Position numbers and translations under genes: made by a program. Below the pieces are notes generated by a model, which did not search any database, was not told the origin of the DNA, and saw only the letters and a list, made by a program, of their open reading frames with translations. 62,350 nt of DNA from the IMG/VR virus record IMGVR_UViG_3300035190_001508, positions 1 through 62,350 of that record, one strand, 5' to 3'. Each line of letters starts with the position of its first letter. Within the stretch, counting starts at the first letter, position 1. Below are positions 31,104-53,143 of this stretch, one piece after another. The DNA comes from a virus.

Positions 31104-31116
31104 GTGTACCTACGCT

Positions 31117-37100: not shown

Positions 37101-40100
37101 AGCGTACCGCAAGAACGCGCTGCTTCTTTTGGAGTACCCAATTGTTGCACGTGAGTTCCCAGAGCTTGCCAAAGAATACGCAAAAATCCGTGGTGCTGTA
37201 CTTAAAGCGCAGGACAAAGCAAAAGCAAACGGCATTAAGATTAAGGGTGCAAAAGACACAGCAAAGAAAACACTCGCTAATTATCTTGGTGTTAGCAAAG
37301 CAAAGGTGTCCGGCAAAATGCTGGAGGACGCCATTGAAAACCCAGAGTCCGCGTTTGTTACCAAGGAGCAGCCGGGGACTGTTGCCGGGAACAAAGAAGC
37401 AAGGGCGCGCAATAAAGCCTTGGCTACGTTTAACAAGAATCTAGACCAGATTAAAAAGTACGCAGCGGAAGGCGTTGTTCTTGGAACAGACAGCAGCAAG
37501 GCCCTTAAGACGTACACTGACGCGCTCGACAAGATTGCCAAGGACCCCGAACACCCTATTGCCGCGCAAGCAGACGAGATTTACAACACGCTAATCGAGG
37601 TTACCAAGAGCAACCTCCGCAAGCTAATGGATGTTTTCCCGGCCGACATCCGGGAAATTGCAAACCTCTGGTACGACGGAGCCAACATTATTGCGCAACA
37701 GTTTGCCGGCGATAACTACTCTCTCGAGCAAAGCTCCGCGGTTCTTGCGGTGTTTAGCCCGCAGAAGGACTGGTTCCAGAACGTTGAACTAGCCAAACGG
37801 ACCATGGAAATCTGGACCGCGGATCAAGAGTACGGGTGGGACGACGCAATGAGCGCGCGCTGGCTTATGCGCGGCGGCGAGCCGGAGCTCAAAGAGAACA
37901 AGGACGGAACCGTTGGCTACGCCAAAGGCATTAAACCGGACCTCGACGAGAACGGTGAGCACCGCACCGACGCAAACGGCATGCTGTTGTTCCATGGTTG
38001 GGGCAGCGAAAAAGTAAAAGCCAAAAGGCAGCAAGCGTTTGAACGCCTGCAGTCCCTAAAAGGCAAGAAGCTCAAGGACCTTACCCCCGAGCAACAAGCT
38101 TGGTTTATTCGCATGCGCGCTGAGACCAAGTACCCAACAGGCTATCCGATTGTTAGCCCGGACGGACGCTTTGGTGAGTCGAGCAAGAGCACCAATAACA
38201 AGGGTGTTACCAAAGAAATCAAGTTGGCTTGGGGAACCTACGGCAGCATTGGTAAGGCTATTAATATCCTTACGGCTCCGTCGGAGACACAAATGAAAGT
38301 TATTAGCGACGAACTTGGCGACCAGCACAAGGTTCGTAGCTTCTACAATAACATTGTGGACCCGCAGAACAACGACGGCCACGTAACCATGGACACCCAC
38401 GCTATCGCGGCGCTGTTCTGGCAAGCGTTCAGCGGTAACAGCCGCGAGGTCGGGCAGAACTTTGGGACAGCGAACACCGCAACCGATAGCGTTACCGGAG
38501 TTGGTGGTCTTTACCCCGCGTTTGCAGAAGCGTACAGAGCGGTAGCCGCCGAGTACGGAATGCTTCCGCGCCAAGTGCAGAGCATTACTTGGGAAGCCGT
38601 GCGCATGCTGTTCACCGCAAGGTGGAAGAGCAAATCTGAAAACGTTAACGGTGTGCGCGCTAAGTGGGTGCAGTACCAGAACAACGAGATCAGCTTGGAC
38701 CAAGCGCAGAACGCAGTGTTTGCAATGGCGACCAACGGTAAGGACTTGGCAACCGCCGTGGCCAACAGCAACGACGAACAGCTGGGCCTTGGTTTCCCGA
38801 GCTGGGCCGACGTGACCGAGGGTCCTGCACCGGCTGGCATTGCGCTTAGCCGCGCGGCCCGGGTCAGTGAGCCTGTAAGGCTTTCAAAAGAACAACGCAC
38901 AGGTTCTGTAGAACTTATTAGTAGTCTTACAGGTGCTGACCAGAAAACAAGACGCGGTGTTTTTGACGGTCTCGTAAACCTTAGCAACGATGATCTTCTT
39001 TCGGTTACAGAAAGACTTAACAAAAAAACTCTTCGCTGGCTTATTGGGTCGGCAGCAGAGGACCAAAGCAAAGTAGTTTTGCTCAGCACGCTGCGCAGGG
39101 CAGTTCGCAAACAAATCGAAAACGCCCCGCAATACCAGCAAGGAGCCGCGTTGTTCAGAGAAGACGATGTGCGCCGCGTTCCTGTTGATAGGCTAGCCGC
39201 GCGTGTTGCGCTTAGCCGCGCGTTGCCAACCCAACTCGACGCTGACTACCTTGCCGCAGTTAACGCAGGCGATGTAGTGGAGCAACAAAGGCTAGTTGAT
39301 GCAGCTGCGAAAGCAGCTGGCGGAGTAGAAGTATACCATGGTGGAGACCTAGAAGGATCTACTATTGACTTCAAGAAAGCAAAAAGAGGAGCGGTCTCCG
39401 AAAGAAGAGACGGCGCTTTTTATGGGAGCACCAATAAAAAGGTAGCGGAATCTTACCGCGGTGCGACAAATAGAATGTTCTTCTTCTTGCAGAACCCGTT
39501 TGAAATTTCAACGCCGACTAATAGGCCAGCCTCTTGGACCGGTAAAACTGCTGAAATTACCAACGGAAAAAGAGTTGAAAGAAAAACAAGTCTTTCAATT
39601 GGCGAAGCAATTGACCGAGCAAAGCAGAATAATAAAGACGGTGTTGTGTATAGCAACATTGTTGATACCGGCCCAGCAGGAGCTGGCGCTATTGGGGACA
39701 CTGTTGTAATCTTTAATTCTAACCAAGCTAAGTCTGCTGACCCAATTGTCCGCGACGACAACGGCAACGTAATCCCGCTTAGCCAAAGGTTCGACCTAGC
39801 AAAGCCAGACATTCGCTACAGCCGCGCGGGCTTGGACACAGCTCCCAAGGCTTTCCGCGGACGCACGGTCCAGCTTACCCATTGGTCCAAGGCCAGCGGT
39901 ATTAAGCAGACAGACCCAACCGAACACGGCAACGGTGGTGCCGGTAAAGAACTCGAGCGCCGCCGCGAGTACGGTGATATTTACACCCCGCGCACGTACT
40001 TTGGGTACGGCAAGTACCGCCGCGAAACGCAGGTCGGTGTTAACCGCTACAGCATGCTGGTTAACGGTGACTCCTTGTACGACTTGGACCGGGACCCACT

Positions 40101-43100
40101 CGACCTGTACCCCGGACAAGACGAACTGCAAAAGGCAGGCTACGCTAAGTTCGACAACCGCGCCGCCCTTACATTGTTCGAGAAGGCCATTAAGGATGCA
40201 GGATACAAGGGCTACGTCAGCACGTCGTACCAAGCTGGTGTTCTGTTCAACAAGCAGAAGGTCACGAAGGTTAAGGACGGCGACACAAGCTTGCCGCTGG
40301 CCACTTCACCAAGTGTAGCTAAAAGCCTTGCCGCGCTAGTCCCATTAAATGCCGCAGAAGAAAAAGCCGCCAGTAAAGCAATGGCCCGACGCAATTCACC
40401 AGAACTTGCTGTTGCTGCTGTGCGCATGATTGACGGTAATATTACTGTAGATGAGTACGCGGACCTTGTTGAGTTCTTCGACCCGTGGGAAATAAAAGGT
40501 GCTATTGATATTCCTGCGGTGGATAAGATTAAACAATTTATAGATGCCAGCAAAATTAGTAAGGTAGAACTGGATGTTCCTGCTGGAACTATTGTTGAAG
40601 CGCGTATTGATATACCGACATACAATAGATCAACAGCTGCAGGAGATTCCGTATATGCAATTACATTGCATCAACCGGCCGCGGTTAGTGCAACACGTGT
40701 TGCCGCCCCGTTATCATACACCAACATAGCCCGCATTACAGGAGTAACCATGGTTGTTCGTGCTATTAGTGGGAAAGGCGAGGCCCGCGACATTGCCGCA
40801 GGTACTGGCAAGTTCCCGCTTGCAACTGTAAAAGGACGCGTTGCTCCAATCACGGAACTCCCAGCTGATATTAACGACCCAGAAGTTTGGACTGAAGTTG
40901 GGTTTAACCCAGTTCGTAGTAGCGACTTTGTAGACGTGCGTAGCAAGCTGGCTGTGGTCGGTGGCTCCGAAGCTATTATGGTTGGGCCGCGTGTATTCGT
41001 ACGCGATGCACAGTTCACCGAACGTGCTACTGGATACATGACAGATAAGAGCCCGCGCTACAGCAAAGCACTTTACGCTATTGCAAGCCCGGACCCGGAA
41101 AGCTCGTACATGGTTAGCGTGGACGACCTTTACATTAACAACGCGACCGGAGAATGGGACGCCGGGAACGGAGTCATTAGCCGTTTGTTCCGCGCCAGCG
41201 GAGACGTTGATCCGCGCATGTTCGAGGCGTCTAAGTATCAGGAGCGTGGTCTTCGTCTTGCGAAGATTCGTCTTAAGGACATGGCTCAGGCTTTCAAGGC
41301 TGCACTTAAGGCAGAACCAAACGCTGACTTGGACGACGTTAACTTGGCTCTTGGTAGCACCGAGCCAACCGTTAGCTCGGCTCAGCGCAGCGCGGCTGAG
41401 TCCGTAAAGAAAGCACAGATTGACGCAGCAAACGCAGCGTTCGATACCGCACCAGCAAACGCTGCGTACGCGGCCGCAGTACAAGCTGCTCGTGTTAACT
41501 ACACGAGCCACCGCAATAAAGCCAAGTACACCGCGGAAGTGCAACAGGCCCGCGAGGCTCGTAAAAACAGTCCTGAAATGGCAGCACGTGATGCCGCAAT
41601 TGCAGCGGCTGATGCCAAGTACAACGCTGACGTGCAGGCCGCGCGCCGCAATAACTTGGTTGGGCTCCGTGCAGCACAAACACAGGCCCAGCTTAGGCTC
41701 GAGCAAAGCTCACCAGAAACCGCTAAGGCTGTTGCCGAAATGCGTGTGGCTATTGATAGGCTCAGCTCGCAGCTCTCGTCCGAGCTCAAAACAAACGATC
41801 CGCTCCGCGCAATTGTTGACCAGAACATAGGCATCTACCTCACGCGCAGCTACAAGATCCATCAGGAGGAAGGCTACGCCCAGCGCATTCTTGAGGACAG
41901 CGAGTTCGCGCATCAACGTGCTCAGGCTCGTGTGTTCTTCGAAAAAGAATGGGTCCGCGATACGTACGAAAGGTGGAGAGCCGATGTCGCGTACGAACCG
42001 TACACCGACGCTGAGGTTATGGTCCTTGTCCGCGCCGAAGCAAAGGCAAAGGACGTCGGCACACGCGCGCTTAACGATTTTGTTGACAGGCACGGCAACA
42101 CGCCGAAAACATTTAGCAGAGCAATGACCCGGACAGACCTGTCCCGGTTCATGCAAAAGGGCGAAGTGCCAGACGAACTCCGCGCTATTCTCGGTGAGAT
42201 TCAGAACCCGTTTGAGAACGCGTTGCGCACGTACGGAAACCTCGCACAGTTCTTGGGAACACAAAGGCTCCTGAACCAATACGCCAAGCTCGGCTTGGAT
42301 AACGGCTGGCTGGTACCGGCGCAAGATGTAACGGATAACCCAGACAAGTACCGCGGTTATAAGCCTTTGGTAAACACCACAGACACCAAGGGCGGAGACC
42401 CGCTCGCTGAGTACTACGCTGAGCCGGACGTCGTTGAAGCTTTCCAATCTATGTTCGGGCCTCCCGCACCAGCGAACCGCAGCACATCCAAAAAGCTTAT
42501 AGACGGCGTAATTACTACAGCCGCGCGAGCTATTGGCGCTAGCATGGGAATGCTTACGCTTGGTAGTGCTTCGTTCTTCGTTCGCAACATTGTCGGCATT
42601 TTGTCCTTTGTTACCGCGAACGGATTCATCCCGAGCCTGAGCAATATTAACGCTTCAAGACTGACGATTAAACAAATTTACGGCAGCAACTTGGAAGGTC
42701 TGGGCGCGGATATGGTAATGCTCGGTGTGGCCGAGGGCAGTATGGTCTCGCAAACTATGCGGGACTTCATGCGCGGTGCAATTGATGACCCAGAAACCGT
42801 TAGTAACCAGATCGAAGCAACGATCCGGGAGCTTGGAACACCGGCCAGTGCACTTGCCAAAGCCGTTAAGAAGTCCAAGGCCGCGGTCGATTCGTTGGCA
42901 ACACTCAACGACCAGATCGACTTGTTCTACAAGGCAATGTACTTTGCACACGAGGTTGACGTGCAGACCAAGGCGAACAAGCACCGCGCTGTTCCGTACA
43001 CGCAAGACCAGATTAAACAAGAAGCCGCGCGGGTCGTTAGGCTAACTACTCAGGGCCGCGAGCGCGTTGCTCCCATCTTTAAGGAGTTCGGACGCAGTGG

Positions 43101-44238
43101 TCTTGGTATGCTCTTTAACAGTTTCTTTAGGTTCACCGCGGAAATCTACAGGCTCCCCGCCTCGACCATTCAGCTCGGTGTTGCTGAAACCAAGAGCGGT
43201 AATCCGGTTCTTAAGGCGCGCGGTATTAAGAGGCTAGCTGGTCTTGGTGCGGCTTTGTCAATGACGCACGGTGCCGCGGAGATTCTTAAGAGCATGTTCG
43301 GTATCGAAGATGACGAAGAAGAAATGGTGCGTGCTTCGCAACCGCCTTACGGGCGCGACGGTAACCTATTCATTACCGTTGACGAAAAAGAAGGTACGCT
43401 TTCCACGTGGGACCTGACGTACACTAACCCGTTCAGTCCTGTTTCTGACCCCATAGGCCGCAGCTTGCAACACATTGTAAGGGGCGACTGGGAGAAGGTG
43501 CCCGGCACAATATTCAAGGGTCTCGCCGCCAGTTTCCTTAGCCCGCAGATCGCGGTCGAGGCTGTTGGTCAGGCCGTGTACAACCTTGACGATTATGGTA
43601 GGCCGCTGTGGTTGGAGAGCGACCCGTGGACATATAAGGCACAGAAGTTTCTTAAGCATGTCGCGGGTAACGCGTACAAACTTAGGACTCCCGTTCAATT
43701 TTGGAAGGCTTACCAAGCGTATACCAATAGCGGGGTCTACGATAAGGACGCACGATTTGAAAAAACATCTGACCTATTGGTCAGGGAGTTCATGCCTTTC
43801 CGTATCCAAACGCACAAGTTCGAGCAGACCGCGCTTAAGGCTTTCCGTACGGTTAAGAAACAAATGGACGTGGGCCGCGCCGCCCTAAGCGTGTTCAACA
43901 GCTACGAGGATCTCGATCAAACCCGAGTAGACGACGCTTACGAAAGGTACGAAAGAGTTCAGGCTTCGACTAACCAAAAGCTCTACGATTATTCAAATGG
44001 TCTTATGGGTCTGGGGCTTAGCTACTCACAGCTCCAGAAGATCGCGGCCGAGGCCGACATTAGTAAGCGTAGGTTCGAGCAGGCGGTGCGGTACAAGCGC
44101 TTCGAGCGTTACGTGCCTAGCAAAGACGCAATGGAGAACTACAAAAAAATCGGAGGCGATAACAACGGAGCCGCGCGCGTGCTTTATATCAGACAAGCCG
44201 TAAGTTCAAAGCCCCAGTACACACCACTAAACGACTAA
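31117..44238 (+). CDS. Giant polyvalent virion protein with zincin and ADP-ribosyltransferase-like domains, 4373 aa
   Basis: The ATG at 31117 (MPQITKDPLG) is preferred to an in-frame GTG 15 bp upstream. Visible parts in order: an N-terminal helical region with a Gly/Ala-rich hydrophobic stretch near residue 810; a zincin motif HELGH (1405-1409); an undefined helical domain (about 1985-2545) with HVTMDTHAIAALFW; an ART-like domain (about 2740-2877) with YHGGD, GAFYGS and VVIFNSNQ; a second ART-like region (about 2918-3052); an Ala-rich helix (about 3430-3560); and a C-terminal domain with a hydrophobic segment near 3802-3842, resembling LPD38-type domains. IRYSR-like linkers separate domains. 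This matches polyvalent proteins that phages package and inject to block host defences. Injection is inferred. Confidence 0.75.
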   Translation: MPQITKDPLGNDVEVLSLTEWSGKNQKELSENTLNQYAGYATGQLLRAGKSPDEFQNNLYSGLFRKGVQEGVFQPQDEEQTKQLFENFANKPFVDEATDLDLVSKSLLNVDSEQAARAADVYQRLQSGQQDPNLDTDLADVRANVATVDKVQQARIDFAKERGLAFIDYPTGEPGRRDVWINTQASPDRKSVYDTLDLAQGIVDPRSAMLAEEYLKTDPGRKVNRAEQKINGELQNLFQSSPSEIIKKNFGTAIEWGSEAAEDKGVSDDVLKKAPTDVVMTPTEDVQVSIAPFGMGGGPIYTSKSGGVPAKKVDSNRIADAVIKNTYERLKQEEPNNPLITDYTEEQFLNAAKDFVIQRLNTDTNQDDPTKNFVSLSDGSRVPLGSASLLPKERFNAAMNSLGFDESEMAVARATRTGWIAANIDDIDQTLYDFDGDKYMDFAQKNREQYDNDRTKIAEAYIDSMEPSVWKTFSAKAKGVARSVWNASYDFGSTVGLGVAKATNWEFAEQAYKDSLIASAENERRRGMFVGMYGGDMGMGYTIVSQAAPLLTDILITKGATGLAKKAAKPLVTTGIRKTEDLFGLSAKSFIRNSLSDETKGIAGKYLASFTIEGAEKSPGQLLRAVRRDLEKQFVAGTATATQIGTSFTRSAQNAWTNTTLRMSKETNEDGTRKYTDEQINDTATTSALYSGLTTALVERGFGKVFGEGADITTVGNANIRQLKAYSKRLGGALERGGFGGTELYDTFKQVSKEIVQEGWGKAAVQIPGEALEEFTDEFAQNVIQSLLGDDTITIKQAFTQAMQAAVVGGVYGGALGSTNKIGLFKEDVARDIATGTAQGIQRDIMDRTIAKLRESGNADQTIAALQDRMRVSQRRDSPISESIPERAVKETIIDELDSLSEEPFDVPTPPAAPEAPPANTVVTRLATNKAKELGVSEEELKTIQPSGLKKGVPQVTRNDVIAFVNRRTEQMGIDLSRFLPGPNITAPEGGLQLIGADAFEDAENRTFDDLKNRVVVIDGLRGRVRIEDEGVILDPEDGSTPLELTPNKDLPIKDFEGFDTLLQERATVSPRRQPREVSDVTEDGKILYGDTEYDLPERPLVANLKKDAEGNIESMHMRVFNSKGLATWVYVAGDNVPKVETSYRVRGPEAVVTFNGAVENAVKETVRRNVSVDEYKTKQSKQRRKQKRAANNAPFVSDQGQRAIEDAPDFRATRMGQPDTPRQLIDEIRTVAAQMGLDPKVFTNDSELFIMIAPEIAAGLDLESFSPQQRARAVQNLQRNGNNPETILEYLVSQEAQPLAERVARSNQIAALRARNNNQIKKHGIKPGADIKTVLENIARSAENKEHRQAAKELLKLGADTVPVAITTLPNNLETAGAYLPESNAVIINLASDNSEGAMGALLHELGHAVTDRVLTAPQNDFELQLRDRILGLRAEYAQRAAEIHGDNIPPDLRYALEGRMSVTEPFSDLNGAREMVAHFYGSKTFRDHLVRLSNKGERNLVQKFIDLIASLFSGQPTASKQYRDLANAITDLSKANQNLGANPYGRTAAQVAASRAGVNHQNRVGQLFGVPNPHSRDDLEWILHQVQTLRYSDLSNEEINELVKSQRFGMLTGENPNDTEFSETENLQFNKNAVRWLRDNGYPVIPIVGKYNRGENSFLVVGLTDQDAIDAAQELNQDSVVTNTGMYFRTGMVSPRVGEVTDEPIGKEDNYFSALLDTNGNVTTIRVEYDLDTTLDSGIRYSKQDQQAAPTTQIAKSLAAQGEFQVVEDRESDKAISFAGGRLVVNPALTEQRYQGYDEEDAADFQELDVRLAVAIGMADTTSGPEVQLDFEEFGLSPDSVIEQAAYNTLTNSDLQDLLRVKEQAKQFVASAYYHIAIRNDGSNERLATAQNHIADLYRYLLRDGEATSETVEGFDPLGAGPVTTQIAERAKPLRPIVRYSRAASNINPTEVRGRTKAGKAVGTRNPTSAKATEDGADSSNLVDLAALKRNPQAYRKNALLLLEYPIVAREFPELAKEYAKIRGAVLKAQDKAKANGIKIKGAKDTAKKTLANYLGVSKAKVSGKMLEDAIENPESAFVTKEQPGTVAGNKEARARNKALATFNKNLDQIKKYAAEGVVLGTDSSKALKTYTDALDKIAKDPEHPIAAQADEIYNTLIEVTKSNLRKLMDVFPADIREIANLWYDGANIIAQQFAGDNYSLEQSSAVLAVFSPQKDWFQNVELAKRTMEIWTADQEYGWDDAMSARWLMRGGEPELKENKDGTVGYAKGIKPDLDENGEHRTDANGMLLFHGWGSEKVKAKRQQAFERLQSLKGKKLKDLTPEQQAWFIRMRAETKYPTGYPIVSPDGRFGESSKSTNNKGVTKEIKLAWGTYGSIGKAINILTAPSETQMKVISDELGDQHKVRSFYNNIVDPQNNDGHVTMDTHAIAALFWQAFSGNSREVGQNFGTANTATDSVTGVGGLYPAFAEAYRAVAAEYGMLPRQVQSITWEAVRMLFTARWKSKSENVNGVRAKWVQYQNNEISLDQAQNAVFAMATNGKDLATAVANSNDEQLGLGFPSWADVTEGPAPAGIALSRAARVSEPVRLSKEQRTGSVELISSLTGADQKTRRGVFDGLVNLSNDDLLSVTERLNKKTLRWLIGSAAEDQSKVVLLSTLRRAVRKQIENAPQYQQGAALFREDDVRRVPVDRLAARVALSRALPTQLDADYLAAVNAGDVVEQQRLVDAAAKAAGGVEVYHGGDLEGSTIDFKKAKRGAVSERRDGAFYGSTNKKVAESYRGATNRMFFFLQNPFEISTPTNRPASWTGKTAEITNGKRVERKTSLSIGEAIDRAKQNNKDGVVYSNIVDTGPAGAGAIGDTVVIFNSNQAKSADPIVRDDNGNVIPLSQRFDLAKPDIRYSRAGLDTAPKAFRGRTVQLTHWSKASGIKQTDPTEHGNGGAGKELERRREYGDIYTPRTYFGYGKYRRETQVGVNRYSMLVNGDSLYDLDRDPLDLYPGQDELQKAGYAKFDNRAALTLFEKAIKDAGYKGYVSTSYQAGVLFNKQKVTKVKDGDTSLPLATSPSVAKSLAALVPLNAAEEKAASKAMARRNSPELAVAAVRMIDGNITVDEYADLVEFFDPWEIKGAIDIPAVDKIKQFIDASKISKVELDVPAGTIVEARIDIPTYNRSTAAGDSVYAITLHQPAAVSATRVAAPLSYTNIARITGVTMVVRAISGKGEARDIAAGTGKFPLATVKGRVAPITELPADINDPEVWTEVGFNPVRSSDFVDVRSKLAVVGGSEAIMVGPRVFVRDAQFTERATGYMTDKSPRYSKALYAIASPDPESSYMVSVDDLYINNATGEWDAGNGVISRLFRASGDVDPRMFEASKYQERGLRLAKIRLKDMAQAFKAALKAEPNADLDDVNLALGSTEPTVSSAQRSAAESVKKAQIDAANAAFDTAPANAAYAAAVQAARVNYTSHRNKAKYTAEVQQAREARKNSPEMAARDAAIAAADAKYNADVQAARRNNLVGLRAAQTQAQLRLEQSSPETAKAVAEMRVAIDRLSSQLSSELKTNDPLRAIVDQNIGIYLTRSYKIHQEEGYAQRILEDSEFAHQRAQARVFFEKEWVRDTYERWRADVAYEPYTDAEVMVLVRAEAKAKDVGTRALNDFVDRHGNTPKTFSRAMTRTDLSRFMQKGEVPDELRAILGEIQNPFENALRTYGNLAQFLGTQRLLNQYAKLGLDNGWLVPAQDVTDNPDKYRGYKPLVNTTDTKGGDPLAEYYAEPDVVEAFQSMFGPPAPANRSTSKKLIDGVITTAARAIGASMGMLTLGSASFFVRNIVGILSFVTANGFIPSLSNINASRLTIKQIYGSNLEGLGADMVMLGVAEGSMVSQTMRDFMRGAIDDPETVSNQIEATIRELGTPASALAKAVKKSKAAVDSLATLNDQIDLFYKAMYFAHEVDVQTKANKHRAVPYTQDQIKQEAARVVRLTTQGRERVAPIFKEFGRSGLGMLFNSFFRFTAEIYRLPASTIQLGVAETKSGNPVLKARGIKRLAGLGAALSMTHGAAEILKSMFGIEDDEEEMVRASQPPYGRDGNLFITVDEKEGTLSTWDLTYTNPFSPVSDPIGRSLQHIVRGDWEKVPGTIFKGLAASFLSPQIAVEAVGQAVYNLDDYGRPLWLESDPWTYKAQKFLKHVAGNAYKLRTPVQFWKAYQAYTNSGVYDKDARFEKTSDLLVREFMPFRIQTHKFEQTALKAFRTVKKQMDVGRAALSVFNSYEDLDQTRVDDAYERYERVQASTNQKLYDYSNGLMGLGLSYSQLQKIAAEADISKRRFEQAVRYKRFERYVPSKDAMENYKKIGGDNNGAARVLYIRQAVSSKPQYTPLND

Positions 44239-44240
44239 AC

Positions 44241-44286
44241 AAAAAAGCCCCGAGCAACTTAATGCTCGGGGCTTCTTGTTTTTTGG
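44241..44286. terminator. Bidirectional rho-independent terminator
   Basis: A perfect 10-bp GC-rich stem (GCCCCGAGCA with TGCTCGGGGC, 6-nt loop) is flanked by AAAAAA on the left and a T-rich tract on the right, so it can stop both strands. It lies between the convergent ends of the giant gene (44238) and of the small-gene operon (44300). Confidence 0.9.
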
Positions 44287-45394: not shown

Positions 45395-45540
45395 GGCTTT
45401 GGTTTTGGTTTGGGGTTTTTCAATAAGAGCAAGTCCCTGCCAACTAACGGGGGCTCCGGCTTGCGGAGCGCTTTGTTCTTGAGCAGGTACTCGTACGCGG
45501 CGCTTTGCGCGGCCAGTCTTTTTGCAGTGTATTCATTCAT
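45391..45540 (-). CDS. Small basic protein, 49 aa
   Basis: The ATG at 45540 overlaps the stop of the 188-aa gene and its own stop overlaps the next ATG. The product starts MNEYTAKRLAAQSAAYEYLL and ends in a KPKPKP tail. A role as partner of the following membrane peptide is possible. Confidence 0.55.
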   Translation of the reverse strand: MNEYTAKRLAAQSAAYEYLLKNKALRKPEPPLVGRDLLLLKNPKPKPKP

Positions 45541-46103
45541 TGTTTTTTGTAGCGGTTGACTTTTTTAGCTTTGAACACCTCAAGGAGTTTGGGGACCTGC
45601 TCCCAGTCCACCGCAAGAATGCAGTGGTCGTGGAGATCAAGGAACGCGCAGTGGTGCACGCCGTTGGTTTGGAGCCAATGGCCGAGCTGGTCGCTGGCCT
45701 CGGAGGCGTTTATGCTGTAGTTCCAAGGCAGGACCACGGACTTGTGGAACCGCGGGAGTTCGGCCTTGACCCGTGCCGGTCGTGTGTCTGTTGCCGGCAG
45801 TACGCGGCAGGTAATTGCGACTAGGTGTGTTATGGTATTTTGCATGTTGTTTTTTGTTTGTTTTTTGGGTGTGTCCCAGACCGCAATGCTAGGCTCCGCA
45901 ACTGGTTGCGGGGCTTGGACTACGGGTTCTGGAGACGAGATTCTGGAGTTGTGAGATTCTAGCGCGTGCTCGGAGCCCGACGCTAGAACTATTCTTCCGG
46001 TTGGGAAGCACTGGTAAACGGAGCTGGTCGCCCGCCCCGTTATGGGGCAGACGCCAGTCTTGGACGATTCGCCAAGGTACACGGCTATTGTTGCTGGCTT
46101 CAT
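45537..46103 (-). CDS. Hypothetical protein, 188 aa
   Basis: The N-terminal part (residues 1-60) resembles a small Cys-containing module (GVCPITGRATSSVYQCFPTG). A Pro/Gln-rich linker follows, and the C-terminal domain starts at a second Met (residue 87), so an internal translation start is possible. CAFLDLHDHCILAVDWEQVP is the best-conserved-looking segment. No family is recognised. Confidence 0.5.
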   Translation of the reverse strand: MKPATIAVYLGESSKTGVCPITGRATSSVYQCFPTGRIVLASGSEHALESHNSRISSPEPVVQAPQPVAEPSIAVWDTPKKQTKNNMQNTITHLVAITCRVLPATDTRPARVKAELPRFHKSVVLPWNYSINASEASDQLGHWLQTNGVHHCAFLDLHDHCILAVDWEQVPKLLEVFKAKKVNRYKKQ

Positions 46104-46106
46104 GAT

Positions 46107-46754
46107 TCACCAAACATTAAGGGCCTTAAGGGTAGCGGCGTCGCGGTCGAGGTAGGACGGCCAAGCGTACTTGGCCAGCTTGTCGATCAGGTCTTTTGCC
46201 GCGCCGTCTGCGAACAGCAGTGCGGTTGGTTGGACCTTCCACGGGTTGGGCTGTAGCCCGTTCCACGCGGCGTTCGCCAGCTCGTCTACATACCTGCTTG
46301 GTGGTTTGGAAAGCAGGCGGCCAGCGTTGCGGCCGTTGGTTGCAAGCGCGCGCCACACAGCGTCGGTTTCCAATTCGTTTAGTCCAGCGCGGTCAGCAAC
46401 AGCCCTGACGATCTGGCCTATGCTGTTGCGGTCGATCCGTTGGGGCTTGGACGGCGGAGGTGCTGGCTCGAGTCCTTCCACTGGAGGTGCTGGTGGGGAG
46501 CTTTCGATGCCAATGCGCACGCGCTCGAGCCCGATTCGCTTTACAACATCGTGCAGGGCCCCGCGCGCTTCGTTCATGGTGTTGCCCTTGGCCACTATGC
46601 GGCCGCAACCAATGCTTGTAATGGACCACCCCTTGCCCGTTACCGAGCGGTGGAGTGCCAAGTTAAGCGGGTGGTCCAAGCGGCTAGCCTTGATCCTGTA
46701 GTAATTGTTGCGGTACGCAACGGGTATTTGTATGTATTCGATTTCTGGTTTCAT
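46107..46754 (-). CDS. Hypothetical two-domain protein, 215 aa
   Basis: The N-terminal region is beta-rich (IQIPVAYRNNYYRIKASRLD). A Pro-rich linker (SSPPAPPVEGLEPAPPPSKP) separates it from a helical C-terminal domain rich in Ala and Trp. It lies in the final, longest segment of the ribozyme-punctuated operon. The function is unknown. Confidence 0.55.
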   Translation of the reverse strand: MKPEIEYIQIPVAYRNNYYRIKASRLDHPLNLALHRSVTGKGWSITSIGCGRIVAKGNTMNEARGALHDVVKRIGLERVRIGIESSPPAPPVEGLEPAPPPSKPQRIDRNSIGQIVRAVADRAGLNELETDAVWRALATNGRNAGRLLSKPPSRYVDELANAAWNGLQPNPWKVQPTALLFADGAAKDLIDKLAKYAWPSYLDRDAATLKALNVW

Positions 46755-46771
46755 GTTTTTGTGTTTGGGGG

Positions 46772-47017
46772 TTAGACAATAAGGTCGATTCCGTTGAGGT
46801 GGAGCGAGCGGAACTTCTGCTCGCCGCGGTCGTCAATGTCCCACGCGTGGACCACCACATACCGGATACCCTTTTTGCTTACGGCTACGCGGTTGACTTG
46901 GTCAACCTTAAAAACACGGACGCCCGTGTTGGTTTGCTGTGAGTCTAGCGCGTTGTAGCGGATCGTGCGACCCGCAAGCGCGCTGACGATTCTTTCAGTG
47001 CTTGCTGTTGTGTTCAT
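46772..47017 (-). CDS. Hypothetical beta-rich protein, 81 aa
   Basis: The ATG at 47017 lies 31 nt after the predicted cleavage site of ribozyme A, which decides the start. The sequence is beta-rich (RVFKVDQVNRVAVSKKGIRY), and the leader lacks a Shine-Dalgarno sequence. The fold suggests a small barrel or OB-like domain, but no motif confirms this. Confidence 0.55.
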   Translation of the reverse strand: MNTTASTERIVSALAGRTIRYNALDSQQTNTGVRVFKVDQVNRVAVSKKGIRYVVVHAWDIDDRGEQKFRSLHLNGIDLIV

Positions 47018-47044
47018 TATTGGTAAGAGCGGATTGGTTGGCTT

Positions 47045-47106
47045 CCGCGACCACCCTTGGGGGGAGAGGGTGGTTTCGGCCCTTGCTACGGGGCCTCGTC
47101 AGGCGG
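47045..47106 (-). ncRNA. Type I hammerhead ribozyme, copy A
   Basis: On the minus strand: stem I CCGC/GCGG; core CTGACGA; stem II GGCCC/GGGCC with an 8-nt loop; GAAA; stem III ACCACCCT/AGGGTGGT; and the cleavage triplet GTC. Cleavage is predicted between 47049 and 47048. It starts immediately after the TAA of the 48-aa gene and leaves a 31-nt leader for the gene at 46772. Its stem III sequence is unlike the other copies but fully paired. Confidence 0.9.
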
Positions 47107-47253
47107 TTAGTCGCGGTAGTCTTCGTACAAGTCTCGAAGCTTGTGTCGCAGTAGTTCAAACTCTAAAGAATCACTATCATCAGTGATTATCTCAAGCAGT
47201 TCTTTTGCAATGCTGTAGATTTCCAGCACGATTTCGTCTTTTGTTTTTTGCAT
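47107..47253 (-). CDS. Small acidic helical protein, 48 aa
   Basis: This gene is bracketed by ribozymes B and A, so it would become a monocistronic mRNA. The ATG lies 29 nt after the ribozyme B cleavage site, and the TAA touches stem I of ribozyme A. The product is helical and acidic (MQKTKDEIVLEIYSIAKELL). The function is unknown. Confidence 0.65.
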   Translation of the reverse strand: MQKTKDEIVLEIYSIAKELLEIITDDSDSLEFELLRHKLRDLYEDYRD

Positions 47254-47278
47254 GTATTTAGTGCGGGTTGGTTGGCTT

Positions 47279-47330
47279 CCGCGACGCCTTCACGGCGTTT
47301 CGGCCCTTGCTACAGGGCCTCGTCAGGCGG
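47279..47330 (-). ncRNA. Type I hammerhead ribozyme, copy B
   Basis: Stem I is CCGC/GCGG, the core CTGACGA, stem II GGCCC/GGGCC and the junction GAAA. Stem III is the short ACGCC/GGCGT with loop GTGAA, and GTC is the cleavage triplet. Cleavage is predicted between 47283 and 47282. The TAA of the 51-aa gene directly precedes it. Confidence 0.9.
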
Positions 47331-47486
47331 TTAGTCGCAGTCGTATTTCCTTTCGAGGTGGTCCTCGTGGCACAGCTCGCAAAGGAGTTTTTGGTTTACC
47401 CTGTAAAAGCGGATTTCGTCCAGCTTAATTTGTTCGAGCGTGTGAACACACCCGCACTCGTTGCATTTGATTTTGTCTGGGTTCAT
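47331..47486 (-). CDS. Small zinc-ribbon protein, 51 aa
   Basis: The ATG at 47486 forms an ATGA overlap with the upstream stop, so the longer in-frame extension is not used. Two CxxC pairs (CNECG and CELC) about 25 residues apart suggest a treble-clef or zinc ribbon. CELCHEDHLERK also recalls HNH-like knuckles, but the protein is too short for a nuclease domain. It may bind nucleic acid or host RNA polymerase. Confidence 0.6.
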   Translation of the reverse strand: MNPDKIKCNECGCVHTLEQIKLDEIRFYRVNQKLLCELCHEDHLERKYDCD

Positions 47487-47773
47487 TGGAATAGGTGGTT
47501 GGTTTGGAGTGTGCGTCGAATAATGCGTCTGGCTCCGGCAGGGGTTGTGTAGCCTTGGCTCCGCGGGCTTACAAACCCGCACTGGTGGAGGTCCGGCACG
47601 CGGGCACCGCGAGCTGGTAGCCCGTAGCGTAGCTGGTCGTCTGGCAGGCCGCCGCAGTAGGGGCTGTAGAGTGCCTCCACGCCGTGGCCGCAGGGGTTCA
47701 TAAGGACAACCCCGAAATAGCCGAAGCTATTCGCGTGGGTACTTACCGATAGCACATAGTAGTCTGGTTTCAT
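47483..47773 (-). CDS. Hypothetical protein, 96 aa
   Basis: The ATG lies 31 nt after the cleavage site of ribozyme C. The sequence has a beta-rich start (YYVLSVSTHANSFGYFGVVL), Cys/Gly-rich loops and a basic C-terminus (ARRIIRRTLQ). The stop overlaps the zinc-ribbon start. No family is recognised. Confidence 0.55.
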   Translation of the reverse strand: MKPDYYVLSVSTHANSFGYFGVVLMNPCGHGVEALYSPYCGGLPDDQLRYGLPARGARVPDLHQCGFVSPRSQGYTTPAGARRIIRRTLQTNHLFQ

Positions 47774-47800
47774 TATTGGTTTGAGCGGATTGGTTGGCTT

Positions 47801-47860
47801 CCGCGACCGCCCGTTTTCACGGGAGGTTTCGGCCCTTGCTACGGGGCCTCGTCAGGCGGG
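47801..47860 (-). ncRNA. Type I hammerhead ribozyme, copy C
   Basis: Stem I is CCGC/GCGG, the core CTGACGA, stem II GGCCC/GGGCC and the junction GAAA. Stem III is ACCTCCCG/CGGGCGGT with a single T-C mismatch and loop TGAAAA. Cleavage is predicted between 47805 and 47804, giving a 31-nt leader. It starts right after the TAA of the 72-aa gene. Confidence 0.9.
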
Positions 47861-48079
47861 TTAGCGCACGAGGAAACTTTCCACATGCTCGAGGGTGGCT
47901 GGGTCCAAGTGCACCACATGGTTCCTGAACTCTGGGCCTAGCTGGTACGCCTTGTGGCGCGCCAGCTCCTGCTGTTCGGCGGTTAGGCCGGAGTCTGTCC
48001 AGCTTGGCGGCAAGCCGCGCGGGTGGACAACAACGCGGGCTCCTTGGCCGCAGTAATCGGTTAGTAGGTATGCTTCCAT
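47861..48079 (-). CDS. Hypothetical protein, 72 aa
   Basis: The protein is soluble and contains CGQGARVVVHPRGLPPSW and a C-terminal HLDPATLEHVESFLVR. It is the last gene of a five-gene segment between ribozymes D and C. The function is unknown. Confidence 0.55.
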   Translation of the reverse strand: MEAYLLTDYCGQGARVVVHPRGLPPSWTDSGLTAEQQELARHKAYQLGPEFRNHVVHLDPATLEHVESFLVR

Positions 48080-48092
48080 ATTTTTTTTGTTT

Positions 48093-48251
48093 CTATTGTT
48101 CGGGTTCGTAGTCTTCGTTGCAGGGATCGGGCGGTAGCGGGTCGTATTCGGGATCGCGCTGGCGGCTAGGCTGGCACGATTCGCAGTTGCTGTCTGGGTC
48201 AGGCCAGTAGCGGCTACCGCACTCGCTACACGCCCATGGTGCTTTGCTCAT
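48093..48251 (-). CDS. Small zinc-finger protein with acidic tail, 52 aa
   Basis: The ATG at 48251 overlaps the upstream stop (ATGA). Two CxxC pairs (CSECG and CESC) are spaced for a zinc ribbon. The C-terminal half is acidic and Pro-rich (DPEYDPLPPDPCNEDYEPEQ), perhaps a DNA mimic or partner-binding tail. Confidence 0.6.
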   Translation of the reverse strand: MSKAPWACSECGSRYWPDPDSNCESCQPSRQRDPEYDPLPPDPCNEDYEPEQ

Positions 48252-48430
48252 TGTTCCTGTTTGGTTTGAGGTGAGTCCCACACGAAATCCTTTTCGTGCG
48301 GGTCGTTTGGCTTAAGGTTCCACCTGTAGTAGGTGCGTGCCCCAACGCGGCACTCAATAAGAGTGTTCGCCTTGGTGTAGTTTGGCGAGGCGTTAATCCA
48401 CTCGCGCAGTGCTTCTTGTATGGTTTTCAT
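48248..48430 (-). CDS. Hypothetical protein, 60 aa
   Basis: The ATG at 48430 overlaps the stop of the 48-aa membrane protein. The helix MKTIQEALREWINASPNYTK is followed by CRVGARTYYRWNLKPNDP, a possible small winged or helix-turn-helix-like unit. The similarity is too weak to call a DNA-binding fold. Confidence 0.55.
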   Translation of the reverse strand: MKTIQEALREWINASPNYTKANTLIECRVGARTYYRWNLKPNDPHEKDFVWDSPQTKQEQ

Positions 48431-48573
48431 GGGACGGGATGGTAGTGGGTTGGCGAGCCTGCGCGGATGCGTAGCTCGAGGTCGCTGGGGCCCCACGCAC
48501 CGCCTTGTATGGCGATGCCTAGGATGATTGCCGCCAAAAGAATAGCGGCTTGGATTATGGTTGCTAGGTTCAT
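48427..48573 (-). CDS. Small membrane protein, 48 aa
   Basis: MNLATIIQAAILLAAIILGI is one transmembrane helix, followed by a polar, Arg/His-containing tail. The stop overlaps the next ATG (ATGA), and the ATG lies 3 nt after the previous stop. The overlap supports translation. Confidence 0.6.
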   Translation of the reverse strand: MNLATIIQAAILLAAIILGIAIQGGAWGPSDLELRIRAGSPTHYHPVP

Positions 48574-48576
48574 GAT

Positions 48577-48897
48577 TCAGGATTCGGTTGTCGGGCAGGG
48601 CTTGCCTTCCCAGTTGTTGTAGTGCTCTTCCGCGGCCGCGTCAATAGCGGGGTGGATTGTGTAGTCCGCCAGTAGCTCCGCGGGTTCGTTTCCAAGCACG
48701 AGGTAGGCGTACTTGTGATGGCCGCCGAAGGTCAGCCACACGCGGCTTTCGTCGGTTGCGTTTACTTCTTCGACGGCCTTGTCAAGGGTATCGCAAGGAA
48801 CCCAGCCGTCGCCGTTGTCCACGGCCGCAATGTGCGCGCCGTGCTTTTGTAGTGTGCAGAGCAGGCTCCGCACGGGAATGGTCCAGTTGTATTTCAT
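48577..48897 (-). CDS. Hypothetical protein, 106 aa
   Basis: The ATG lies 32 nt after the ribozyme D cleavage site. The sequence looks like a small alpha/beta domain (RVWLTFGGHHKYAYLVLGNE) with a helical acidic end. No catalytic motif is seen. Confidence 0.6.
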   Translation of the reverse strand: MKYNWTIPVRSLLCTLQKHGAHIAAVDNGDGWVPCDTLDKAVEEVNATDESRVWLTFGGHHKYAYLVLGNEPAELLADYTIHPAIDAAAEEHYNNWEGKPCPTTES

Positions 48898-48925
48898 TGT
48901 TTTTTTTGGCGGATTGGTTTGGCTT

Positions 48926-48978
48926 CCGCGACGCCTTCACGGCGTTTCGGTCCCTGCCACGGGACCATCATCAGGCGG
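48926..48978 (-). ncRNA. Type I hammerhead ribozyme, copy D
   Basis: Stem I is CCGC/GCGG, the core CTGATGA, then one extra T, stem II GGTCCC/GGGACC, GAAA, stem III ACGCC/GGCGT and GTC. The TGA stop of the 62-aa gene is inside CTGATGA. Stem II differs from copies A-C but is fully paired. Cleavage is predicted between 48930 and 48929. Confidence 0.87.
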
Positions 48979-49159
48979 GGTCTAGGATTTGCAAGCGCTT
49001 TGTCGGCCACAACGAGCCGTTGTCCTTGGCCGTTTCCCAGTAAGCAAAGCCCCTCCACTCTTCGGGGAGGTTCTCCGCCTCGAACTCCTCGTCGGTCAGA
49101 GGGGTAAGGGGGTCGGGAAACGGGTAAGCCTCATAACAATTGTCCAATTTTTTGGTCAT
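48971..49159 (-). CDS. Acidic hypothetical protein, 62 aa
   Basis: The protein is acidic with many aromatic residues (CYEAYPFPDPLTPLTDEEFE). Its stop codon is the TGA of the ribozyme D core, so the last coding bases are part of ribozyme stem I. The function is unknown. Confidence 0.6.
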   Translation of the reverse strand: MTKKLDNCYEAYPFPDPLTPLTDEEFEAENLPEEWRGFAYWETAKDNGSLWPTKRLQILDPA

Positions 49160-49180
49160 TTTTGCTGGGTTGGTTTAGTT

Positions 49181-49396
49181 TTAAACATTGGCTGGGCCGT
49201 GCCACTTGTCCCAGAGGTCCTGTTCGGGGATCTCCTCGAGCGTGTAGTCGCGGCGGCGCGGTGGGCGGTCTCCGAAGGCATCAGCAATGGCCTTTGCTTT
49301 CGTTTCGCCGTGGCCAAGAAGGCAACGGCCAAGGTGAACCCCAGAGGGGCGTGTGACGATCCAGACGAGGCTGGTGGTGTTGTTGTTGTTGGTCAT
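49181..49396 (-). CDS. Hypothetical protein, 71 aa
   Basis: The ATG at 49396 lies 31 nt after the ribozyme E cleavage site, which decides against a longer reading frame through the ribozyme. The sequence starts MTNNNNTTSLVWIVTRPSGV and includes DRPPRRRDYTLEEIPEQDLW. No family is recognised. Confidence 0.6.
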   Translation of the reverse strand: MTNNNNTTSLVWIVTRPSGVHLGRCLLGHGETKAKAIADAFGDRPPRRRDYTLEEIPEQDLWDKWHGPANV

Positions 49397-49423
49397 TATT
49401 TTTTTGGGCGGATTGGTTGGCTT

Positions 49424-49484
49424 CCGCGACCGCACCGCCGAAGCGGTTTGGTTTCGGTCCCTGCCACGGGAACTCATCAGGCGG
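49424..49484 (-). ncRNA. Type I hammerhead ribozyme, copy E
   Basis: Stem I is CCGC/GCGG and the core CTGATGA. Stem II GTTCCC/GGGACC has one T-C mismatch. After GAAA, stem III has ten positions with a 2-by-2 internal loop and a TTCG tetraloop, then GTC. The stop of the upstream gene is the core TGA. Cleavage is predicted between 49428 and 49427. The stem II mismatch may lower activity. Confidence 0.85.
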
Positions 49485-49902
49485 TGCGTAAACGGCGGGC
49501 TAGCTGGCTGGCGGTGCTGGCCGCGGTGAACTCAACCAGCTTGCCGCTAGGACGGCGGGCGGTCCACTCTACAGCGCGGTCGCGCCCGTGCTGACCAGTG
49601 CCCTTCTGGAAGCTTATGGTCCAGTTGGGGAACAGCGCGGACAGCGCGGCGTGTTCGGCCCAGTCTACGGCGTGACCAAGCGCGATGTTCTCGATCCACG
49701 CGTCGGCGGCGCGGTTGGACTTGGAGCAGGCCCAGCGCAGGCCGCTTTGGTAAGCGTGCGCGTTGATCGAAGGGTGCAGGAACCAAGTGGACCGCTGGGC
49801 CGCGCTGTGGACGACTAGGCCGCCACGGCTACGCAGTGCGGAGCACGGGCGGTACGGGTGGTTGGTGGGTTCCTTGCGGCTTTGGTAGGCTGTTTGACTC
49901 AT
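49477..49902 (-). CDS. Hypothetical basic protein, 141 aa
   Basis: The ATG at 49902 overlaps the stop of the 57-aa gene (ATGA). Features are WIENIALGHAVDWAEHAALS and a basic C-terminal half (HGRDRAVEWTARRPSGKLVE). It ends in the core of ribozyme E. There is some resemblance to small nuclease-like alpha/beta domains, but no active site can be named. Confidence 0.55.
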   Translation of the reverse strand: MSQTAYQSRKEPTNHPYRPCSALRSRGGLVVHSAAQRSTWFLHPSINAHAYQSGLRWACSKSNRAADAWIENIALGHAVDWAEHAALSALFPNWTISFQKGTGQHGRDRAVEWTARRPSGKLVEFTAASTASQLARRLRTA

Positions 49903-50072
49903 GGTTGTGGTTGGTTGGATTTGAGGTTGTCCACGATCCGCGCAAGGCGGAGCAGTTCTTCCCGTGCAGAGCACAGGCTTTCGTAGCTAGCTTCTGGGTT
50001 CTGGAGCACCTCGCAGTAAACCTGCACGGCGAACTCCCAAGTGGGAGTTGTGTCGATTGTTTTTGTTTTCAT
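49899..50072 (-). CDS. Helical protein, 57 aa
   Basis: The ATG at 50072 and the ATGA overlap at its end fix the frame. The sequence is helical (FAVQVYCEVLQNPEASYESL) with a C-terminal leucine-rich helix. It fills the gap between two neighbours. The function is unknown. Confidence 0.55.
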   Translation of the reverse strand: MKTKTIDTTPTWEFAVQVYCEVLQNPEASYESLCSAREELLRLARIVDNLKSNQPQP

Positions 50073-50096
50073 TGTATTATTTTTTGTGGTGTTGGT

Positions 50097-50342
50097 TCAT
50101 AGCCAAGGAAGGTACACTCCGCGGTTTTTTTCGATCCGATCAACGGCGTCAGCTTTGGCGTCTTCGATTGTGGGATACTCGAAGCGGTAGCCGTTTATGA
50201 CTAGCCGAACGGGCTCGCTCTCGCGCCAGAGCACACCAACGCCAAAGCGTTGGCCGCATCGCGTGAAACCGCCGAAAGATTGAGAGTATTTCAGCCCGTC
50301 AATCGTGCCAGTTTCTGTTTTCCATTCTATTTCAAGTTTCAT
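50097..50342 (-). CDS. Hypothetical beta-rich protein, 81 aa
   Basis: The ATG lies 30 nt after the ribozyme F cleavage site. The sequence looks like a small beta sheet followed by a helix (YRFEYPTIEDAKADAVDRIE), similar in shape to single-domain KTSC/RepB-like proteins, but I cannot name the family. Confidence 0.6.
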   Translation of the reverse strand: MKLEIEWKTETGTIDGLKYSQSFGGFTRCGQRFGVGVLWRESEPVRLVINGYRFEYPTIEDAKADAVDRIEKNRGVYLPWL

Positions 50343-50368
50343 TATTTTTTGGGCGGATTGGTTGGCTT

Positions 50369-50427
50369 CCGCGACCGCCCGTTTTCACGGGAGGTTTCGG
50401 CCCTTGCCAAGGGCCATCATCAGACGG
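50369..50427 (-). ncRNA. Type I hammerhead ribozyme, copy F
   Basis: Stem I is CCGT/GCGG with one G-T pair. The core is CTGATGA followed by one extra T. Stem II is GGCCC/GGGCC with loop TTGGCAA, then GAAA, stem III as in copy C, and GTC. The stop of the 107-aa gene is the core TGA. Cleavage is predicted between 50373 and 50372. Confidence 0.87.
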
Positions 50428-50743
50428 ACTTCTCGAGGCGGGCCTTGACCCGCGAGGCGTTGTGATCGCCGCAGTACAAGGGCACGCCGTACGGCTTGCC
50501 GTCAGCATCGACTGGCGCGTACCACTCGAGGCTGGCGAACTCCTCCTCGTTGGGGAGGTAGAACAGGCTGACCTGCTCGCTGGCGGCTTCCCATTCGCTG
50601 GAGCCCAGCTTTACACCCATGCCGCTGGGACCGCGGAGGCCCAGCTTGGCGATTGCTTCCCATGGCGAAGGCGCGACGGCCCAGCCCAAGTAGTTGACCG
50701 CCAAGTAGGCGGCCCCAGCATTGTTCACGTATGCTTTTTTCAT
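50420..50743 (-). CDS. Hypothetical protein, 107 aa
   Basis: This gene is bracketed by ribozymes G and F and would be monocistronic after cleavage. The N-terminal part is hydrophobic (AAYLAVNYLGWAVAPSPWEA) and the rest soluble. PYGVPLYCGDHNASRVKARL at the C-terminus has a Cys/His pair. The ATG lies 30 nt after the ribozyme G cleavage site. Confidence 0.6.
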   Translation of the reverse strand: MKKAYVNNAGAAYLAVNYLGWAVAPSPWEAIAKLGLRGPSGMGVKLGSSEWEAASEQVSLFYLPNEEEFASLEWYAPVDADGKPYGVPLYCGDHNASRVKARLEKSV

Positions 50744-50769
50744 ATTTAAAAAGCGGAGGGGTTTGGCTT

Positions 50770-50826
50770 CCGCGACCGCCCGTTTTCACGGGAGGTTTCG
50801 GCCCTTGCCAAGGGCCTCATCAGGCG
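50770..50826 (-). ncRNA. Type I hammerhead ribozyme, copy G
   Basis: Stem I is TTCGC/GCGGA including one G-T pair. The core is CTGATGA, stem II GGCCC/GGGCC with loop TTGGCAA, then GAAA, stem III as in copies C and F, and GTC. No extra base interrupts the core. The stop of the first operon gene is the core TGA. Cleavage is predicted between 50774 and 50773. Confidence 0.92.
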
Positions 50827-51494
50827 AAGTTTGCTTCGAGTTTCCAGAAGTGCTCGATGACCTCCTGCGGCACGCGCTTGCGCTTGCCGTCTTCCCCGTC
50901 GTCGAGGTAGCCGTTGTGCTCCGCGAACGCCAGCGAGCCAGCGAAGTCGCCGTGCGAAATGTCGGCGTACAGCGTATCGCCGTCGCGCTCGAGTTCGAGG
51001 GTGAACCCCTTGAACTTGTGCACCTCTTTTTTCGGCGGTGGCGTCGCCGCGGCAATGAACGCCGCGTCGCTGGCGTCCTTGGCCTTTGCGGCCTCGAATG
51101 CACGGGCGTGTTCGAGGTCTTCCAAGGCGGCAAGCTTGCGGCGTTCGAGCTCCGCTTCGAGTGCTTGCTCGAATGTGACGAACAGGCCGTGGTCGAACGC
51201 GTGGCCTTGCGGGTTCCGGCCGTCCAAGCGGCCGTGGCCAGTGTCGCAGTCGAGGACCGCTATGCTGTCCTGCTTGAGCACCACCGCGAGGTTGTGCGCG
51301 TGCCAGCCGTCCGAAGGGGCAAACCCGACGACCACCAAGGTGGGCTGGGGTTGGCCTTCCCACTCGCCGTTGTGCAGGATGCTGGCGTGGGACTCGAAGC
51401 CCGTTGCGGCGAGTGCTTCGGCGGCAACACCGCGGCTGATCTCTTCACCCGTTGCTTCAACAAGCAACCCAATATTCAATTCGTATTCTTTCAT
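50820..51494 (-). CDS. First gene of the ribozyme operon, hypothetical, 224 aa
   Basis: The ATG at 51494 (MKEYELNIGLLVEATGEE) is used; a TTG 111 bp upstream would place coding over the structured leader. The N-terminal half has a Gly/His/Asp-rich segment (VLDCDTGHGRLDGRNPQGHA), and the middle is a charged helix. The C-terminal 65 residues look like a separate small beta domain (FKGFTLELERDGDTLYADIS). The function is unknown. Confidence 0.6.
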   Translation of the reverse strand: MKEYELNIGLLVEATGEEISRGVAAEALAATGFESHASILHNGEWEGQPQPTLVVVGFAPSDGWHAHNLAVVLKQDSIAVLDCDTGHGRLDGRNPQGHAFDHGLFVTFEQALEAELERRKLAALEDLEHARAFEAAKAKDASDAAFIAAATPPPKKEVHKFKGFTLELERDGDTLYADISHGDFAGSLAFAEHNGYLDDGEDGKRKRVPQEVIEHFWKLEANFA

Positions 51495-51711
51495 GTTTGC
51501 GTGCCCTCTGCATTGCTGGACTTGGGACCAGTACGCGGCGGCCCACACCTTGTGGGCTTGTTCCGCGCAGTTGCATTGCACGCGCCCCACTACTTCGTGG
51601 GGCAATTTCGGGGGCTGGGAAAGAACTAGGTCAGCCGCTCTTGGGTGTACCGCGCTGGTCCGTTAAGACCACCGCGGTTGCCCCGCTGGCAGGCCGTCAG
51701 TTGCTGACGAC
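51495..51711 (-). promoter_or_regulatory. Highly structured 5' leader of the ribozyme operon
   Basis: On the minus strand four hairpins follow one another. CGTCAG/CTGACG lies at 51695-51709. CCGCG-G-TGGTC with GACCA-G-CGCGG lies at 51650-51677: two 5-bp blocks around a G-G mismatch. GCCCCAC/GTGGGGC lies at 51584-51603 and GCCCAC/GTGGGC at 51541-51557. None is followed by a T-run, so they are not simple terminators. A stabilising or ligand-responsive leader is possible. Confidence 0.55.
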
Positions 51712-52522: not shown

Positions 52523-53143
52523 TTGTGCCACATTAGCGTCAACTTGGACACCGAAGAGAAAATCAAAGCGCACAGGCGAGCGGGTTTTGCACCCGAACTC
52601 AGCAGGGTACTGCAGCCGCACGAGTGGTCAAAACTAAGAGAATGGGTAGAGCGCAACCCAGAAGCGCGGCTGTACAGGAACGAAATCTACAACGGGCGCG
52701 CGTTCTACCAGTACAACCCAAAGAGCAAGTCCGGTATGTTCTGGGCGAGCAAGGAAAAGCTGCTACGGTACAACATAAACAGGAGGGTCGTGTCCCCGAC
52801 CATAAAGACGTTCCAGAACGCGGCCCGTAACGGGTACAACGCGAAGTTTAAACGGTGGGCCGCTAAAAACTTAGACAGCGCGAAAAGGCGAGGCATTCAG
52901 CACAGCCTGTCTATTGGCGAGCTTAAGTGCTTGTTCGAGTCACCGTGCTTCTTTTGCGGGCAAGCGCCGCAGGAGTCCAAAAGCTGGGGCATAGACCGGC
53001 TAAACAACGGGATCGGGTACCACTACGACAACTGCGTGCCGTGCTGCAAGATTTGCAATATAGCGAAGTCAACGCTTGGTTTTGAAGAATTTGTCTCGCA
53101 CGTCGCAAAGATCACAGCAAACATAGGGCACGTAATACCATGA
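52523..53143 (+). CDS. HNH endonuclease, 206 aa
   Basis: The C-terminal domain carries CFFCG, then GIDRLNNGIGYHYDNCVPCC and CKICNIAKSTLGFEEF, a zinc-bound HNH/treble-clef nuclease with D-R-x-x-N in place of the first His. The N-terminal part is basic and helical and probably binds DNA. The start appears to be TTG at 52523; no better in-frame ATG exists. It could be a homing-type nuclease or a packaging-associated HNH enzyme. Confidence 0.75.
   Translation: MCHISVNLDTEEKIKAHRRAGFAPELSRVLQPHEWSKLREWVERNPEARLYRNEIYNGRAFYQYNPKSKSGMFWASKEKLLRYNINRRVVSPTIKTFQNAARNGYNAKFKRWAAKNLDSAKRRGIQHSLSIGELKCLFESPCFFCGQAPQESKSWGIDRLNNGIGYHYDNCVPCCKICNIAKSTLGFEEFVSHVAKITANIGHVIP

Follow-up and report, generated by a model that had tools for sequence, protein, structure and literature searches.

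Clusters of hammerhead ribozymes (HHRs) are known from prophages, where they flank single genes or short gene blocks and where their proposed role is to divide long transcripts into mRNAs of gene length (Perreault, 2011; PMC3088659). Self-cleavage of such prophage clusters, at loci other than the present one, has been seen in vitro and, for one set of three, in E. coli; the term "stop codon" is absent from the main text of that study (PMC3088659). A review describes the role of hammerheads in prokaryotes and phages as an open question (PMC6155905). An engineered counterpart exists in RiboJ, an insulator in which an HHR is followed by a hairpin that is left at the 5' end of the mRNA ahead of the ribosome binding site, and which raises transcript abundance about twofold (PMC6206723).

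A Perreault-type arrangement is evident in the window analysed here, an IMG/VR record of 62,350 bp, in which seven type I HHRs of ~70-77 nt each lie on the minus strand between short blocks of small genes (Table 1). As in the prophage clusters, several HHRs flank genes or short blocks in phage DNA; in addition, stop codons fall within the ribozyme or next to it, the operon leader holds a twister-like element, the gene blocks appear to be shuffled at the ribozymes, and a 5' hairpin is predicted for each cut. The order of ribozyme, hairpin and binding site is shared with RiboJ, whereas the phage array is natural, has up to seven units per operon, is joined to the stop codon of the gene before it, and has a hairpin whose 5' arm doubles as a stem I strand. 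A search limited to the open literature, and hence no proof of novelty, returned no report of a rule relating HHRs to stop codons, of gene blocks reordered around HHRs, or of hairpins that follow the cut in natural HHRs. We suggest that the operon is a self-processing gene array, in which the HHRs would cut one long transcript into short mRNAs, and we give this reading a probability of roughly 0.6.

The genes for terminase, DNA polymerase, helicase and endolysin in the record indicate a tailed phage. Its terminase is 30% identical to that of Pseudomonas phage AF over 31% of the length only, and a DNA search of annotated phages gave no match. The small genes of the minus-strand operon, whose first start codon is at 51,494 and which extends as far as a terminator-like hairpin, matched no Pfam family at its cut-off, and a PHROGs search with three array genes gave a single weak match without a name. 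Scanning for the post-cleavage motif described below identified four related phages, each with 6-7 HHR copies in one operon. Elsewhere in the record, a single open frame on the plus strand (31102-44238, 4378 aa) converges with the HHR operon and carries a motif of the HELGH type, such as is seen in large polyvalent proteins of phages; a plus-strand ORF with paired CxxC motifs and the look of an HNH-type endonuclease (52523-53143) adjoins the promoter side of the operon; adjacent ORFs at 9826-11888 appear by eye to be glycosyltransferase-like and dTDP-glucose-dehydratase-like; and a lone tRNA gene (Rfam 69 bits) lies on the minus strand at 23530-23600.

Table 1. Features of the hammerhead operon in the 62,350-bp window.
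Feature	Positions	Strand	Details	Basis
Twister-P1-like element	51500-51582	minus	operon leader, just upstream of first ATG (51494)	RF03160
Gene F0 (first gene)	50820-51494	minus	224 aa; stop 50822-50820 is the TGA of HHR G	ORF list
HHR G	50754-50827	minus	core 50817-50823; predicted GUC cleavage between 50774 and 50773	core scan
Post-cleavage hairpin of HHR G	50753-50773	minus	GCGGA...TCCGC	sequence and folding
Gene F15	50420-50743	minus	stop is the TGA of HHR F	ORF list
HHR F	50354-50427	minus	core 50417-50423; predicted cleavage 50373/50372	core scan
Gene F1	49477-49902	minus	141 aa; stop is the TGA of HHR E	ORF list
HHR E	49409-49484	minus	core 49474-49480; predicted cleavage 49428/49427	core scan
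Gene F19	48971-49159	minus	stop is the TGA of HHR D	ORF list
HHR D	48910-48978	minus	core 48968-48974; predicted cleavage 48930/48929	core scan
HHR C	47786-47859	minus	CTGACGA core; upstream stop TAA 47863-47861	
HHR B	47264-47330	minus	CTGACGA core; upstream stop TAA 47333-47331	
HHR A	47030-47106	minus	CTGACGA core; upstream stop TAA 47109-47107	
Genes F7, F4, F5	45537-47017	minus	last block of the array	gene-family comparison
Terminator-like hairpin	44242-44277	minus	strong, likely operon end; 15 bp stem with T tail	

The HHR array spans 47030-50827, wider than the 48971-50826 delimited in the initial annotation. Its copies follow the layout CCGC-CUGANGA-helix II-GAAA-helix III-GUC/GCGG (the slash marks the predicted cut), with helix I open and single stem I changes in F and G; since the closed helices are II and III, they are of type I. 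The core letters, namely CTGA[TC]GA, GAAA and GTC before GCGG, are found in 33/33 copies of the five-phage family. Helices II and III vary with their pairing kept, 95.9% of the model cells being paired compared with 26-45% in slid controls, and two pairs of the model show changes on both sides; the irregularities are one helix II mismatch in E and an extra U after the core in D and F. By itself the CTGATGA 7-mer is not rare (5 observed, 3.0 expected), unlike the post-cleavage motif GTCGCGGAAGCCAA(A)CC, of which 7 were observed against 0.15 expected. No Rfam hammerhead model was matched at its gathering score, an aid rather than a defining property of a ribozyme, and the matches are weak: 24.6 of 56.3 for the RAGATH-1 hammerhead (RF03152) and 18 of 48.5 for type III (RF00008). 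The phage copies share with both the order CUGANGA, helix II, GAAA, helix III, UH, and differ in lying far below gathering and in having helices II and III closed; this phage form may perhaps be missing from the coverage of the Rfam models. A pseudoknot, as a tertiary contact between loop II and the helix I region, is possible in D-G, where loop II (UGGC) could pair with a downstream GCCA, or GCCAA; in A-C the loop reads UAGC, and in the family alignment the variable loop base is not compensated. Within one genome (L058), adjacent HHRs carry an identical helix III variant, three copies in a row on two occasions, and homogenisation among the copies is a likely cause.

The initial annotation had placed the stop codons of the genes upstream of D-G on the TGA inside CTGATGA, and this holds: the four ORFs end at 48971, 49477, 50420 and 50820, on core positions 2-4. 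For A-C it had described a TAA abutting stem I, which is correct for A and B (7 nt before the core) and needs amending for C, where the TAA lies 8 nt before the core with a 1-nt gap. A double stop had also been pointed out, and the next in-frame codon is indeed again TGA in D-G; it appears incidental, merely reflecting N7 = U. As a selected feature the double stop was rejected, N7 identity being unlinked to an in-core stop both in the 33 family copies (Fisher p 0.65) and in 66 copies from other phages (p 1.0).

Across the five phages, the upstream stop lies inside the core in 24 of the 33 copies and 7-10 nt upstream in the other nine, and no gene reads through (0/33); these copies are not independent and represent, by upstream gene family, ~11 distinct in-core junctions and three upstream ones. 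In most copies the invariant CUGA thus provides the stop, and stem I codes for the last two residues. The gene F0 has two different end points, and at both of them a fused HHR provides the stop: the product terminates in ...LEANFA in the phages G000 and G003, and in G001, G002 and G004 the coding DNA stops short at the homologous ...GCGTTCCTTGCCGC, to which the HHR adds ...QPA-stop. For this gene, comparison of the sequences shows the HHR behaving as a portable stop.

A wider scan of viral contigs used a pattern requiring helix II to start with GNCC, which yields a biased sample, followed by a custom HHR finder; after removal of near-duplicates it gave at least 123 type I HHRs outside the family. 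Upstream ORFs were called mechanically as the longest clear frame, and some outliers will therefore be wrong. Among the matches listed, 90 HHRs have a clear upstream gene, and its stop falls at -12 to +1 in 66 of them, compared with 7% at random positions with a clear ORF in the same contigs. The recurrence of an identical layout in other phages argues that the stop overlap is a real design rule. Measured to stem I, 41/90 of these HHRs overlap the stop and 24/90 abut it, compared with one of 49 intrinsic terminators from the same contigs lying that close (Fisher p 1.5e-17); most terminators stay 4-30 nt off, and we conclude that HHRs, in contrast, show no avoidance of the ribosome. Four further viral contigs (L102, L144, L085, L113) have arrays of 4-7 type I HHRs, with differing stem I sequences, indicating that such arrays are widespread in phages. 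A motif scan of bacterial genomes gave 32 pattern matches, of which the custom finder accepted none as a type I HHR.

The overlap could also be a matter of pure compaction: the HHR would sit as near to the end of the gene as coding constraints permit, without any role in regulation, and the core TGA would be used since it is present. This is compatible with a self-processing array, and both can hold. Touching or overlapping genes are common in these contigs, where 187 of 465 gene-gene gaps (~40%) are of 3 nt or less, and genes of one family may or may not have an HHR at their end. Packing therefore seems to account for part of the overlap, perhaps not for all of it, as the share of HHRs that overlap or abut a stop (65/90 among the matches listed) exceeds the share of gene-gene gaps of 3 nt or less. 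Compaction also sits poorly with the junctions of the five phages, where 11 distinct families of upstream genes always use the in-core-stop frame and never another through the core. Pure compaction we regard as somewhat unlikely.

After the predicted cut, the sequence GCGGAAGCC(A)AACCAATCCGC is nearly invariant among the family copies despite varying helices II and III. GCGGA can pair with a UCCGC 10-11 nt further on, and folding predicts the resulting hairpin in 33/33 copies, with a mean of -6.5 kcal/mol. In calculations that leave tertiary contacts out of account, keeping stem I costs stability relative to the unconstrained optimum in every copy, by a mean of 2.4 kcal/mol. On this modelling, the post-cleavage RNA can fold into a hairpin at the expense of stem I, and the balance between the two is a prediction of folding; a hairpin stronger than stem I could also inhibit cleavage. 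A partner-swap test on the at least 123 non-family HHRs found a downstream hairpin of at least 4 bp in 60, compared with 33.3 +/- 4.4 after swapping, and one of at least 5 bp in 17, compared with 6.2 +/- 2.3. Such hairpins occur with other letters, as TATTGC/GCAATA and GTTGC/GCAAC in one phage (L177) and as GTGG/CCAC in L102. At two minus-strand copies of L102 (2572 and 5370), the possible hairpin extends into the ribosome binding site or start codon, and could instead hide them.

A ribosome with a stop codon in its A site shields roughly 10-13 nt downstream. The initial annotation had proposed that a terminating ribosome would cover the core and so delay folding and cleavage; the whole core would be covered for in-core stops, and for stops at -7 to -10 the coverage would reach the 5' strand of stem I as a minimum. 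With this footprint, the ribosome would overlap the ribozyme in all 33 family copies and in most other HHRs, which invites the idea of a translation-gated ribozyme: a ribosome terminating on the in-core stop would open stem I and the core, coupling translation to processing, and cleavage would happen only when it is faster than the first ribosome. That terminators keep off stops and HHRs do not, and that the tail hairpin wins over stem I in every free fold, are in keeping with such gating. Compact spacing yields overlap as well, however, and neither N7 nor the double stop is tied to stop position; when the nucleotides through core +12 are forced to be unpaired, the tail hairpin appears in only 8/33 folds; and an HHR, unlike a terminator, has no deadline and may merely tolerate ribosomes. 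A cleavage delay caused by the ribosome is geometrically plausible, while packing or modular joining explains the overlap equally well, and gating as such we judge unlikely. Its fullest form, a switch in which stem I is displaced and the freed GCGGA is captured by UCCGC so that the ribozyme is locked off, is doubtful indeed; if it were true, genes would be joined or separated according to which of transcription, cleavage and first translation came earlier or later.

The five operons draw on the same gene families, in differing sets and orders. The blocks with an HHR between them are F0, F13, F1, F12, F6, F11-F2-F3, F0', F8-F10, F9 and F7-F4-F5, and neighbours are conserved in 27 of 31 cases within a block and in 23 of 43 across an HHR, in a sample of five phages of which two are close relatives. 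The F8-F4 junction in G004 is altered without an HHR. From these comparisons we infer that the blocks have behaved as cassettes, entering and leaving the operons and changing places, with breakpoints that mostly coincide with hammerheads, and that the repeats probably served as joining points through recombination at the ribozymes. Two distant relatives with an F4 gene (L185, L186; 32% identity in one gene) had no ribozyme that the tools used could find, so that the array does not seem essential to the gene neighbourhood. That the repeats are recombination or packaging elements of incidental hammerhead likeness is highly improbable, for even though block reordering falls mostly at the repeats and adjacent copies of one genome have common stem III variants, every letter of the catalytic core is kept, as are stems I-III and the cleavage triplet, stems II and III vary with their pairing, and the repeats lie on the strand of the genes, always between a stop and a start.

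The reading we favour is thus a self-processing array, with ribozyme positions, stops and blocks that can be read directly from the DNA. A single long minus-strand transcript would start probably upstream of the twister-like element, at ~51.6 kb, and end near 44.24 kb. The leader element is a full-length match to RF03160 (38.1 bits, E 1.2e-5; below the gathering score of 67.2), and the four related phages have one in the identical leader position (44.5-45.1 bits, again below 67.2, E down to 6e-7), so that it is present in 5/5 phages. The twister-like leader element and the seven type I hammerheads would cut the transcript into mRNAs of a few genes each, every hammerhead being fused to the 3' end of the preceding gene and the stop coming from the invariant core CUGA in most family copies, or else being the gene's own within 10 nt. 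With the stop placed in a segment of the ribozyme that does not vary, blocks and hammerheads could be joined in any combination. The cut would fall ~45-65 nt past the stop, leaving the upstream mRNA with its reading frame entire and with helices II and III as a 3' cap; as the stop always precedes the cut, no non-stop mRNA would be produced. The downstream mRNA would begin with GCGGA, which would pair with UCCGC into a 5' hairpin ahead of the start codon. Cleavage in vivo and protection of the mRNAs are what we infer from this layout.

The rule that emerges is an HHR at a stop codon, then, as a statistical excess, a 5' hairpin, then a start codon. If general, it would give HHRs a concrete job as punctuation of both gene end and gene start, and it makes mRNA processing and its coupling to the ribosome testable with simple reporters. 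If true, it would mean that phages have evolved an insulator like RiboJ.
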